A stretch of 42,682 nucleotides of DNA from Candidatus Martarchaeota archaeon (GTDB taxonomy: Archaea > Micrarchaeota > Micrarchaeia > Micrarchaeales > CABMGC01): contig JAMCYP010000010.1 in NCBI GenBank assembly GCA_023476545.1, positions 1 to 42,682 of the forward strand, given 5' to 3'. Positions 13,035 to 39,347 of this stretch are shown piece by piece; within the stretch, counting starts at the first letter, position 1, and each line of letters opens with the position of its first letter. The translations under genes and the position numbers were made by a program. The notes below the pieces were generated by a model. The model saw only the letters and a list, made by a program, of their open reading frames with translations. It was not told where the DNA came from and did not search any database.

Positions 13035-13721
13035 ATGAAGGCAGTCATACTCGCGGGCGGCTACGGGAAAAGGCTCATGCCTCTCACGAGCGTGAATCCC
13101 AAACCGTTGCTTGACGTTGCAGGCAAGCCAATCATAGACTGGCAGATCTCCTGGCTGAACAGGTCCGGAATAGACTCGTTTGTCGTGCTGTGCGGCTATC
13201 TGAAGGAGAAGATAAGATCGCACATGAAGATTCTCAAGAAAGAGTTTGACATAGACGTTGAGCTGGCGATAGAAAGCACGCCCCTCGGGACCGGAGGCGC
13301 CTTGAGGAACGCGAGGAAGAGCATAGGGGACGAGAGATTCATCGCTATAAACGGCGATGTCATAACAAACCTGGATGTGGGTAAACTAAAGCTCGGAACC
13401 GCGGTCGCAACCATCGCCCTAACGCAACTCCGTAGCCCGTTCGGAATAGTTAGGTCAGCAAGCGGAAAGGTACGCAAGTTCGACGAGAAGCCCTACATAA
13501 AGAACTATTGGATAAACGCCGGCGCGTACCTCATGAATGACGAGATATTCGACTATCTACCTAGAAAGGGAGACATAGAGCGCACAGCCTTTACCGTGCT
13601 GGCTGAGAGGAAGATGCTTAACGGCACCCAGTATCGGAATGTATATTGGCACTCAATTGATTCGATAAAAGACCTCGAAGAAACGAGCAAGGACGTGCGC
13701 AGGGGCGCCCTCAGGAGATAG
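13035..13721 (+). CDS. Sugar-1-phosphate nucleotidyltransferase
   Basis: MKAVILAGGYGKRLMPLTSVNPKPLLDVAGKPIIDW signature. Confidence 0.88.
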   Translation: MKAVILAGGYGKRLMPLTSVNPKPLLDVAGKPIIDWQISWLNRSGIDSFVVLCGYLKEKIRSHMKILKKEFDIDVELAIESTPLGTGGALRNARKSIGDERFIAINGDVITNLDVGKLKLGTAVATIALTQLRSPFGIVRSASGKVRKFDEKPYIKNYWINAGAYLMNDEIFDYLPRKGDIERTAFTVLAERKMLNGTQYRNVYWHSIDSIKDLEETSKDVRRGALRR

Positions 13722-13767: not shown

Positions 13768-14421
13768 GTGCAGGACTTCAAACCTTTCAAAGAGGACGTG
13801 ATGCTCAGCCGCCGCACCTTCTCCGCAGAGGAGCTGCAGGGCAAAGAGAACTATCAATACAGGAAGTTCATGCTCGATGTGGATCCCGAGAAGTTTGTAT
13901 CAGACTTGAGGAACCGTGCGGGAGATCTGGGATACATCTTCGATTTCAAACCTCAAAACCGCGCAAAGATCACGGAGCCTGAAGGAGAGACGCGCATAAA
14001 CCTGCCTGTTCTTGCTACGAGGACCAGCAAAAGACGAATGTTGAGTCTGAAGAGGGTTCTTGCGGTAGGAGTCACAATAACCGGAGCAGGTCTGCTGGCG
14101 CTCTTCCTGAACCTGGCTCTTGGTGTTCTGATATTCGGGCTGGGAGAGCTATCATTCATCTCGTGGCTGCAGAGGCAGAGAGCCCTGAATGCGGCCAAGA
14201 AGCCGTTGGACGTGCACAAGATGTGGCTCTTTCTGGAAGGCACAACGCATCCAGCTGACGTATTGCCTGGAGAAGAGGGCGCGCACACCGCAAACATGCG
14301 CAGAGTGTCTGAGATAACTCTGCATCTGGCCGGAGAATCAGACAGGGGAGTGAAATATATGCGCGAGGATATCACGAAGTTTATCCGTTCCATAGACAGC
14401 ATGTACCCTTCGCACGCCTGA
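13768..14421 (+). CDS. Membrane protein of unknown function
   Basis: 217-aa ORF with a central hydrophobic hairpin (VLAVGVTITGAGLLALFLNLALGVLIFGL); 'tttttaaac' TATA-like upstream. Confidence 0.6.
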   Translation: MQDFKPFKEDVMLSRRTFSAEELQGKENYQYRKFMLDVDPEKFVSDLRNRAGDLGYIFDFKPQNRAKITEPEGETRINLPVLATRTSKRRMLSLKRVLAVGVTITGAGLLALFLNLALGVLIFGLGELSFISWLQRQRALNAAKKPLDVHKMWLFLEGTTHPADVLPGEEGAHTANMRRVSEITLHLAGESDRGVKYMREDITKFIRSIDSMYPSHA

Positions 14422-14433
14422 TGTGCATCAGTA

Positions 14434-14469
14434 GTGGCGGAAGCACGGGGCATCTCACGTAAGGTGAGC
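14434..14469. repeat. Candidate degenerate copy of the tRNA-Val-associated repeat
   Basis: Reverse strand ACCTTACGTGAGATGCCCCGTGCTTCC versus ACCTTAGCAAGCATGACCTGTGCCTCC at 15268-15309: 18 of 27 positions identical without gaps. Confidence 0.35.
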
Positions 14470-14622
14470 TTCCCTCTCCTTTTGGCAACCCTTCCGAATA
14501 AGCCCAGATTCGATTTTTAATGCCAAGATTTATTATCAGGTTAAAGCAGAATAGAGTGAGTTATACGGAGCAAACTGATTCCGCTACCTGCGGTTTCGCT
14601 TGTTGCTTGAATTAGCTATTGC

Positions 14623-15261
14623 GTGTTGGTAATGAATGAAGTGGTTTTAGAGTCAAACGTTAAAAGAGGCCTGCTCACCAAGAACGGAGAAGAGGTAGAA
14701 AGACAGGTTAGAGATCTCTTTGGTCTCAAAAGGTCGAAGCATCCGCATTCCTCAAAACCAGATATATTGGATTTCACGGAAGGAGTGGTCGGCGAGGTTA
14801 AGTCCTTCAAAAAAGGAAGCCGCGTCCTGCTGTATGTAGATCAGGTAAGGCGCTATCTGGAACTCGCAGACGAGATAAACGCTACCGGTTCGCTTGATGG
14901 AATGAAGACCAAAACAGAACCAGTCTATTTCGTGGTCGTCTTCGATTACGAGAACCAAAAGATAACAGACATCTATAAGCTTGACAGGGAAAAACTAGAA
15001 AAGGTTCTCGAACGCCAGACCAAGAACCAAAAATGGAACATTGTCAACAAGAGGATTTTGAGAGAGTTGCGTATGCTCAACGACGCATCCCAAACTCTCC
15101 TTGAAGACGCTCCTAGAGACGAACTGGCGTCAGATGTCCTGAGAGGCAACCCCAGAGGGGAATACACAAGGTTAAACAAAGCGGAACTTGACCAACTTTG
15201 CCCAAATGTCTCAGATATCTCTGATACCCCTGATACAAACCACATGACACTGCATTCCTAA
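14623..15261 (+). CDS. PD-(D/E)XK nuclease-like protein
   Basis: KPDILDFTEGVVGEVKSF fits PD..(E)xK; GTG start at 14623 or ATG at 14632. Confidence 0.55.
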   Translation: MLVMNEVVLESNVKRGLLTKNGEEVERQVRDLFGLKRSKHPHSSKPDILDFTEGVVGEVKSFKKGSRVLLYVDQVRRYLELADEINATGSLDGMKTKTEPVYFVVVFDYENQKITDIYKLDREKLEKVLERQTKNQKWNIVNKRILRELRMLNDASQTLLEDAPRDELASDVLRGNPRGEYTRLNKAELDQLCPNVSDISDTPDTNHMTLHS

Positions 15262-15267
15262 ACTAGC

Positions 15268-15309
15268 GTGGAGGCACAGGTCATGCTTGCTAAGGTTCGC
15301 TGGAGAAAC
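15268..15309. repeat. tRNA-Val 3'-end-containing repeat, copy A
   Basis: GTGGAGGCACAGGTCATGCTTGCTAAGGTTCGCTGGAGAAAC; first 13 nt identical to the 3' end plus flank of tRNA-Val (16825-16837); remainder shared with copy B. Confidence 0.85.
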
Positions 15310-15359
15310 AATATTATTTGATATTAAACACAACATTTTGCATTTATTGATAGCAATCT

Positions 15360-16031
15360 CTATTGCAATAGCTTAAGTAGTTCTATCGCCCTTTTGGGAT
15401 TGCCCCTTCCAATTGGAAAATAGCAGGGAATTACTTCTGTTTTGGCAGAACCCACCTGCAGTTTATATGCCCTTAGTTTCTGCTCCCGAATTGAACTTTT
15501 ATAATATTCGAACAGCTTTATGCCCCGTTTTGTTAGATTTGTGAATGGAATTGCACCGAAAGTAACCACGCGTTCTGGGTTGACTAATTCTATCTCTCTT
15601 TCCAGAACCGGCAAAAATAACTTTATCTTCTTCGAATCGGGAAGAGCAGCATTTTGTCCAGTCCACTTGACTATGTTTGTTAAGTAAACACGCTCTTTCT
15701 TTAAAAACTGCAATAATTCATTTGTAAATTCCACAGACCATCTTGATGAAACATTTATTCTGTCAATCAAACTCTGATTAAGCAAGTCTGCTTTATAGAA
15801 AATCCTCCAAATTTGTTTAGTTCCTATAAAAGGGAACCGCGGTCCCTGCCAATCAGCCTCGGAGCTTATGTTTCGCACAGTGGGATTGATGAAAACAAAC
15901 ATAATCCTGGGGTTGTGAGTTTCTCCATTACCCAAAATAGGCATGAGCTTATTCTCTGGAAAATTCGTTCTATTGATTTCTTCAACATAGCTCCAAAGTT
16001 CATCAAGATTACTGCAGTTTCGGAGTTTCAT
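15360..16031 (-). CDS. Uracil-DNA glycosylase superfamily-like protein
   Basis: PRIMFVFINPTVRN...W.GPRFPFIGTKQIWRI and C-terminal PCYFPIGRGNPKRA. Start MKLRNC chosen because a TATA-like TTTATATA lies ~20-25 nt upstream; the longer ORF start reads through repeat B. Confidence 0.6.
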   Translation of the reverse strand: MKLRNCSNLDELWSYVEEINRTNFPENKLMPILGNGETHNPRIMFVFINPTVRNISSEADWQGPRFPFIGTKQIWRIFYKADLLNQSLIDRINVSSRWSVEFTNELLQFLKKERVYLTNIVKWTGQNAALPDSKKIKLFLPVLEREIELVNPERVVTFGAIPFTNLTKRGIKLFEYYKSSIREQKLRAYKLQVGSAKTEVIPCYFPIGRGNPKRAIELLKLLQ

Positions 16032-16080
16032 ATAACATAAATGTTCTTTCAGCGTATATAAACCTATAAGAAAAAAAGAC

Positions 16081-16121
16081 TTGGAGGCACAGGCCATCCT
16101 TGCTAAAGTTCGGGGAGAAAC
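16081..16121. repeat. tRNA-Val 3'-end-containing repeat, copy B
   Basis: TTGGAGGCACAGGCCATCCTTGCTAAAGTTCGGGGAGAAAC; near-identical to copy A with one small gap. Confidence 0.85.
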
Positions 16122-16142
16122 GATGTCAAACGACGGTAAGTG

Positions 16143-16757
16143 CTATTTTTTGACCGCAGTAACTACATAGTGTTTATTTGTGGTATCCAAATGCATTTCC
16201 TTAATGTTAAAGCCCTTGAAAAATTTCTTGATTAATGGTTCATTAAAGTAAAAGTGCGGCAGCCCCTTTTCATCGCCATCTAAAGGAAGATAAGTTCTAA
16301 AATCTACTCTCTTAAAGTGGTGTCCTTGAGTTTTTCCTTTAGGAACTGTGAAGAACAAAATGCCATTCTTCTTTAGAACCCTTTCTACCTCTTTTATCAC
16401 TTTTCTTATCCTCTTGGGATAATTATGGTGTAAGACTTGAGTTGAAATCTCTGCATCAAAAAAGTTGGTCTTATAAGGGAACCTGTTATTCATATCATAA
16501 ATCCTTGCATGCGCCTTGAGGTGTTCTTTTCTGAGCCATTGTCTGACAATCTTTATGCCTGTCGGTGAGGGGTCAAATCCATAAACATCAAATCCATTCC
16601 TTGCCAGATAAATTAAATGTCTTCCAGTCCCACAACCGATATCTAAAACTTTCTTCACATGTTTTCTCCGAAACAAGCCCACAAGCTTTGGCATATCCTT
16701 CTGGGGTTTTAGAAAGTATTTTCCCTTCTTTTTATATACTTCGTCCCATGCAGCCAT
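16143..16757 (-). CDS. Class I SAM-dependent methyltransferase
   Basis: VLDIGCGTGRHLIYLARNGFDVYGFDPSPTGI motif I and following motifs. Confidence 0.85.
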   Translation of the reverse strand: MAAWDEVYKKKGKYFLKPQKDMPKLVGLFRRKHVKKVLDIGCGTGRHLIYLARNGFDVYGFDPSPTGIKIVRQWLRKEHLKAHARIYDMNNRFPYKTNFFDAEISTQVLHHNYPKRIRKVIKEVERVLKKNGILFFTVPKGKTQGHHFKRVDFRTYLPLDGDEKGLPHFYFNEPLIKKFFKGFNIKEMHLDTTNKHYVVTAVKK

Positions 16758-16825
16758 GTTTATCCCATTACTCGATATCGTTTAATGCTGTTTAAGAAGC
16801 GAATTTCATGTTCGATGGAGTTACG

Positions 16826-16896
16826 TGGAGGCACAGGGAATCGAACCCAGGCCTTCAGCGTGTAAAGCTGACGTCCTACCATTAGACTATGCCTCC
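16826..16896 (-). tRNA. tRNA-Val(TAC)
   Basis: GGAGGCA/TGCCTCC acceptor, anticodon loop TTTACAC, GGTTCGATTCC T-arm, discriminator A. Confidence 0.95.
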
Positions 16897-39201: not shown

Positions 39202-39330
39202 TCTTAATCATCATTTGCAAGCCTGCCTTTCACATCAAATTAATCTCACCAAAAGGATAAATTCCTTTACTTTCTATCTGTCGTCGGCGCCAATATGGCA
39301 AATCGAATAAGCCCCACACAAAATCAGGCA

Positions 39331-39347
39331 CTCCCTCCTGGGGCTGG
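39331..39347 (+). repeat. tRNA-Thr 3'-end copy 1
   Basis: CTCCCTCCTGGGGCTGG; CCCTCCTGGGGCTGG is a 15-nt exact match to the tRNA-Thr 3' end plus 2 nt of flank (through 30330). Confidence 0.8.

Follow-up and report, generated by a model that had tools for sequence, protein, structure and literature searches.

Tandem one-gene units at the tRNA-Val(TAC) gene of a Micrarchaeota genome, probably inserted site-specifically as cassettes without an integrase

The DNA analysed here, referred to as the window, is a stretch of 42,682 nucleotides from Candidatus Martarchaeota archaeon (contig JAMCYP010000010.1). Three one-gene units are arranged in tandem behind the tRNA-Val(TAC) gene (16825..16896, minus strand; ARAGORN and Rfam), which is their attachment site. 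These units are probably cassettes that lack an integrase of their own and were inserted site-specifically at this tRNA by a tyrosine integrase supplied in trans. The insertion and the modularity of the units are well supported, and the locus appears to be one instance of a cassette-like system at several tRNA genes of the lineage.

The 3' end of tRNA-Val(TAC) (16826-16837, minus strand) reads TGGAGGCACAGG on the plus strand, and this exact 12-mer recurred at 16082-16093 and 15269-15280, in agreement with the initial annotation, which had described a repeat of 12-13 nt of the tRNA end near 16081 and 15268. All remaining matches in the window carried two mismatches or more. At both distal copies the core was followed by an arm (16094-16121 in the first att copy, 16082..16121; 15281-15309 in the second, 15269..15309; both on the minus strand), and the two copies, reported to share 28 or so extra nucleotides absent from the tRNA, were 90% identical over 31 nt and extended to GGAGAAAC with a 1-nt indel. 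The fused sequence of core and arm had exactly two copies in the 760-kb genome, both in the window, and no further copy in 78 genomes of the family with up to three mismatches allowed. Occurrence of the repeat at many loci unrelated to tRNAs, which had been named as evidence against insertion, was thus not seen in the genome or in the 78 relatives. A weak third core copy, CGGAAGCACGGG, matched 9 of 12 positions at 14438-14449 (minus strand, CCCGTGCTTCCG), slightly offset from the boundary previously placed at about 14434. In alignments this degenerate copy fell opposite the tRNA end of two relatives, G019 and G020, and it is read as the junction with the old chromosome.

The core copies delimit units of 744, 813 and 831 bp with a single gene each, matching the earlier description of three one-gene units of about 0.75-0.83 kb. 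Unit 1 (16082..16825, minus strand) and unit 2 (15269..16081, minus strand) each consist of a gene, a distal arm and a core, while unit 3 (14438..15268, minus strand) has one gene and the degenerate distal core. The GC content of units 1, 2 and 3 was about 0.38, 0.38 and 0.45, respectively, against about 0.50-0.55 in the flanks, and the two units nearest the tRNA are therefore richer in AT than their surroundings, as had been noted. Position, GC content and the decay of the outermost core together suggest an order of insertion in which unit 1 would be the newest and unit 3 the oldest.

Unit 1 carries a SAM-dependent methyltransferase gene (16143..16757, minus strand; 204 aa; PF08241, 3.6e-21) and unit 2 a gene of the uracil-DNA-glycosylase (UDG) superfamily (15360..16034, minus strand; 224 aa; PF03167, 4.3e-11), which is weakly family-4-like and had NCBIfam matches far below the cut-off. 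The latter gene was taken as 15360-16034 because the longest open reading frame starts within the repeat. A single homologue of the UDG protein was present among 301 genomes of the phylum, at 57% identity and in another family, with no Val core nearby, and no unit related to the window genes is known at tRNA-Val in other genomes of the family, the UDG gene being the one tested. Both of these assignments from the initial annotation were borne out by Pfam. The third, a nuclease-like gene (14623..15261, plus strand), was not, as the 212-aa product had no family match in Pfam at the gathering cut-off, NCBIfam or PADLOC. Its fold model was too poor for use (mean pLDDT 37), and residues picked out by eye (...PDILDF...GEVK...) could represent a PD-(D/E)XK motif.

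Beyond unit 3 the chromosome continues with genes for a 217-aa protein (13768-14421, plus strand) and an NTP transferase (13035-13721, plus strand), located +2407 and +3107 from tRNA-Val. The relative G019 has the same neighbours directly behind its tRNA-Val, with the 217-aa homologue at +39 (only 32% identical to the window protein) and the NTP transferase at +796 (75% identical). The window locus carries about 2.3 kb extra between the tRNA and these common neighbours and thus represents a net insertion relative to G019, which agrees with the expectation that the units would be absent in some relatives with an intact tRNA end. The arrangement in G020 was similar and was considered as a second empty site, a weak candidate since both neighbours were just about 27% identical. 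The neighbourhood of tRNA-Val and an aminotransferase gene was kept in most family loci inspected.

The pattern extended to other tRNA genes of the genome, of which all but 340 bases of contig C25 was covered, together with two congeners (G016 and G017) in their entirety. The 5 kb downstream of each of the 34 tRNAs was searched for the 13-nt 3' end of that tRNA with one mismatch allowed, which gave 11 copies against 0.31 expected from a control with the ends of other tRNAs. One of these was a tandem tRNA-Gly, leaving ten, and another, at tRNA-Thr(CGT), sits in a dispersed repeat. The tRNAs with units were those for His, Ser, Gly and Asn, the last with two in tandem, together with Val(TAC), Val(CAC) and Val(GAC); a weaker example was seen at Pro. 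Most tRNA-end copies shared only 12-24 nt with the tRNA, and the cargo of the small units included Fic/Doc, PIN, HicA, HepT with an MntA-like partner and YafQ/ParE-type toxins. Almost no such units were present in G016, while G017 had its own set.

Copies at tRNA-Thr(CGT) and tRNA-Thr(TGT) were set aside as units, the distal copies of both being within one 104-bp repeat. This repeat occurs in the window (39242-39345) and on contig C9 (29716-29831) at 99% identity, with a copy of 89% identity in G017. It contains TGTCGTC and shares its terminal CCCTCCTGGGGCT with the tRNA-Thr 3' end. It is located downstream of tRNA-Thr in both copies of the genome itself and near tRNA-Pro in G017. A separate observation was made at tRNA-Arg(GCG) in G017 and G016, where partial copies of about 44 nt were found 745 and 1457 bp downstream; these may be insertion traces of another kind or truncated tRNA genes.

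Arrays at tRNA-Val recurred in the family. At least 14 of the 79 family genomes, which are drafts, partly incomplete, and include relatives picked by locus rather than at random, had two to three exact same-strand copies of CCTGTGCCTCCA spaced 0.6-8.6 kb apart at tRNA-Val, while the reversed pattern, used as a control, gave about 6 matches over all genomes combined; mismatched cores were assessed case by case. The majority of units were 0.5-1.5 kb long and contained one gene or a toxin-antitoxin pair but no integrase. Intact genes or gene pairs were found in many units of 0.5-1.3 kb.

One unit of 1.0 kb with a gene for a 207-aa protein could be followed between genomes. Its DNA in G041 matched that in G043 at 92.7% identity, and identity to the G047 copy was about 77-83%. 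The protein was 83% identical between G041 and G047 against 51% for the aminotransferases encoded by the flanking gene. Core-like ends were located at about -278 and +100 of the gene in G043, G038 and G066, whereas the left core was at -381 in G047, which has an extra stretch, and the right core at +93 in G067. Counted from the tRNA, the unit occupied the first position in G041 and G043, the second in G066 and G067 and the third in G038, and this occurrence of one unit in different array positions gives further support to the successive insertions proposed in the initial annotation. Homologues of at least 78% identity were present in 13 genomes, and in ten of these the gene was no more than 3 kb from a Val core. 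Three others in the collection of contigs (L223-L225) had the gene with no cores nearby and with homology confined mainly to the coding part, and the cargo therefore also occurs outside such units. The structure model of the 207-aa protein was too poor for use, and pattern-based scans of viral contigs found no homologue of this protein or of the integrases and no match to the pattern of arm and core. A unit with an ATPase gene behaved in a similar manner: G014 and G039 share it at 90% identity, whereas their flanking genes are 48.5% identical.

Arm motifs were shared among units with unrelated cargo, which supports the suggestion that the 28 nt common to the window copies act as an attP arm. 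In eight of 24 tRNA-Val units, both window units among them, GAAC preceded the core by exactly 18 nt, against a maximum of five in 2000 shuffles; seven of 19 remained when L217_u1, whose arm resembles that of L197_u2, and the integrase elements were left out. The GAACCTA arm at this position was common to units with different genes, the cargo of the eight GAAC units comprising a methyltransferase, UDG, YafQ/ParE-type, Fic and ATPase genes, and none of the eight had a match to the integrase queries or an integrase open reading frame. No integrase-bearing element with a GAACCTA arm was found, and those that occupy this tRNA (L046, L203, L205) had different arms. On the other side, GACGACA was present in the P' arms of 11 of 42 units, compared with a maximum of eight in 200 random samples of unit interiors. 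In G000, G016 and G017 the only tRNAs with the motif at 70 nt or less from their 3' end were those that bear units, a count that includes Thr(CGT), which has the P'-like motif; for G016 this was 0 of 36. The P' arms of the window units themselves had no GACGACA.

Contig ends at the tRNA gave a hint of variation within populations. Both G066 and G067 have one contig that ends in tRNA-Val and another that starts with a unit, and the two share an overlap of exactly 127 nt whose end lies 1 or 5 nt beyond the core. In G028, G037 and G043 the distance between the end of the core and the end of the contig that bears the unit was 126, 125 and 140 nt. Such an exact 127-nt overlap is expected where assembly paths with k=127 fork at the tRNA end, the assembler settings (k=127 or k=141) having been deduced from contig names and lengths. 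Read as forks, these contig ends suggest that the sequence continues in more than one way among the sampled cells, and they may have other causes.

None of the integrases of the genome was located in the window, in agreement with the initial annotation, which had found none in the units. The genome has three tyrosine integrase genes elsewhere, on contigs C6, C23 and C25, and all three show the catalytic pattern R/HxxR/Y. Two of these genes lie in integrase-bearing elements, one of 3.0 kb at tRNA-Val(GAC) (C6, 7241-10280) and one of 4.6 kb at tRNA-Val(CAC) (C25, 4208-8763), each with a duplicated tRNA end that extends past the tRNA. The C23 integrase, compared with the sequences of solved structures, was most like XerC/XerA and less like IntI4. 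Tyrosine integrases were present in 57 of the 79 family genomes and serine recombinases (PF00239) in three of the 79, the latter being absent from this genome. Arrays without a detected integrase occurred in G001, G038, G055 and G072, which are incomplete genomes. Some tyrosine integrases near tRNA-Val, on contig C14 of G040 and in other relatives, had an in-frame stop, which suggests decay of integrase elements.

These observations are best explained by a unit in which one gene lies between a P' arm and a P arm, the latter followed by a 12-nt copy of the tRNA end. The core of a putative circular form would recombine site-specifically with the tRNA end, and each insertion would rebuild the tRNA and move the earlier unit outward, so that the newest unit adjoins the tRNA. 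With no recombinase gene in any of the three units, a tyrosine integrase would have to be supplied in trans, and its action on the window units is the simplest inference. The successive one-gene insertions first suggested for this locus are supported by the absence of the insert in G019 and by units built in the same way elsewhere, both at further tRNAs and in further genera.

It is plausible, although unlikely, that the units are instead remnants of integrase-bearing elements from which the integrase and most genes were deleted after insertion. Integrase-less integrated archaeal elements have been attributed in a review to such loss after integration (PMC8371274), and the use of the same tRNA by integrase-bearing elements in relatives, the broken integrases there (G040) and the decayed third boundary of the window are all consistent with that history. 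Deletion would however have to account for the 207-aa unit, which retains about 1.0 kb and both ends across genera and array positions, for one arm common to units with unrelated genes and for the intact genes or gene pairs in many small units. Exchange by DNA uptake and homologous recombination in the array region, without site-specific recombination, is very unlikely. The tRNA and the conserved flanking gene offer homology for exchange of a whole array, but the units end on a 12-nt core too short for this, their order differs across genera and the pattern is repeated at several different tRNAs.

Duplicated tRNA fragments or chance repeats with ordinary genes between them can hardly be credited, even with truncated tRNA copies in relatives such as those of tRNA-Arg in G016 and G017, since the similarity to most tRNA ends is limited to 12-24 nt, the arms recur between units despite having no relation to the tRNA, the copies are far above the permuted control and G019 lacks the insert. 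An integron array proper (CALIN), built of cassettes with attC sites, would likewise give tandem single-gene cassettes without an integrase, and integrons have been reported in Archaea (PMC9668308), but it can practically be dismissed as the boundary is a tRNA end rather than an integron core and none of six sequences had single-strand folding better than shuffles (z -0.4 to 1.6).

The cassettes proposed here resemble several known systems without coinciding with any of them. Arrays of integron cassettes and CALINs, including archaeal ones (PMC9668308), also contain single genes or toxin-antitoxin pairs with no integrase in the array, and the newest cassette is expected nearest the platform. 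In Micrarchaeota, a tRNA gene serves as the platform, attC hairpins were not found and the C23 integrase, by its matches among solved structures, appears nearer to XerA than to IntI. Cis-mobilizable elements (CIMEs) and accretion arrays at the 3' ends of tRNAs or other genes share attL and attR, the lack of recombinase and transfer genes and tandem placement at one site, and the window units likewise have att sequences at both ends and no such genes. CIMEs are however regarded as what is left of conjugative or mobilizable elements, while the Micrarchaeota units are near-minimal, constant in size across genera and have arms common to unrelated cargo. The system works like a cassette system and is filed neither as an integron nor as a CIME.

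Islands at ssrA in Dehalococcoides are tandem and bounded by copies of the RNA-gene 3' end, next to which lies a conserved motif that the gene itself lacks. Fifteen of 31 are without an integration module (McMurdie et al. 2011, PMC3146451), and this lack in about half of the islands is paralleled by the Micrarchaeota units, which are likewise without an integrase. The islands differ in carrying many genes and in using the serine recombinase DsiB and a single tmRNA gene (PMC3146451), whereas the Micrarchaeota have many single-gene units of 0.5-1.5 kb at several tRNAs and tyrosine integrases in their genomes. Archaeal integrative elements targeted to tRNAs (PMC8371274) share the duplicated tRNA 3' end, tyrosine integrases and tandem integration, and the window locus has the intact tRNA and the duplicated distal end of such elements but not an integrase of its own; its units also contain no viral or plasmid genes. 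A literature search gave no paper on such units in Micrarchaeota, which is not proof of novelty.

A broader reading, possible though not quite probable, is that Micrarchaeota have an integron-like system with tRNA genes as docking sites, in which one or a few tyrosine integrases encoded elsewhere load cassettes at several tRNAs and shuffle them there and between genera. The cassettes of such a system may be defined by a tRNA end and common arm motifs and may carry single genes and toxin-antitoxin pairs as cargo, a suggestion we hold equally tentatively. If true, genomes near 0.8 Mb would use tRNA genes as sockets to gain or swap single genes, with no need for the recombinase to move with them, a cassette capture parallel to that of integrons. 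This would account for the toxin-antitoxin and other accessory genes behind tRNAs in these genomes and would provide a testable route of gene exchange for ultra-small archaea.
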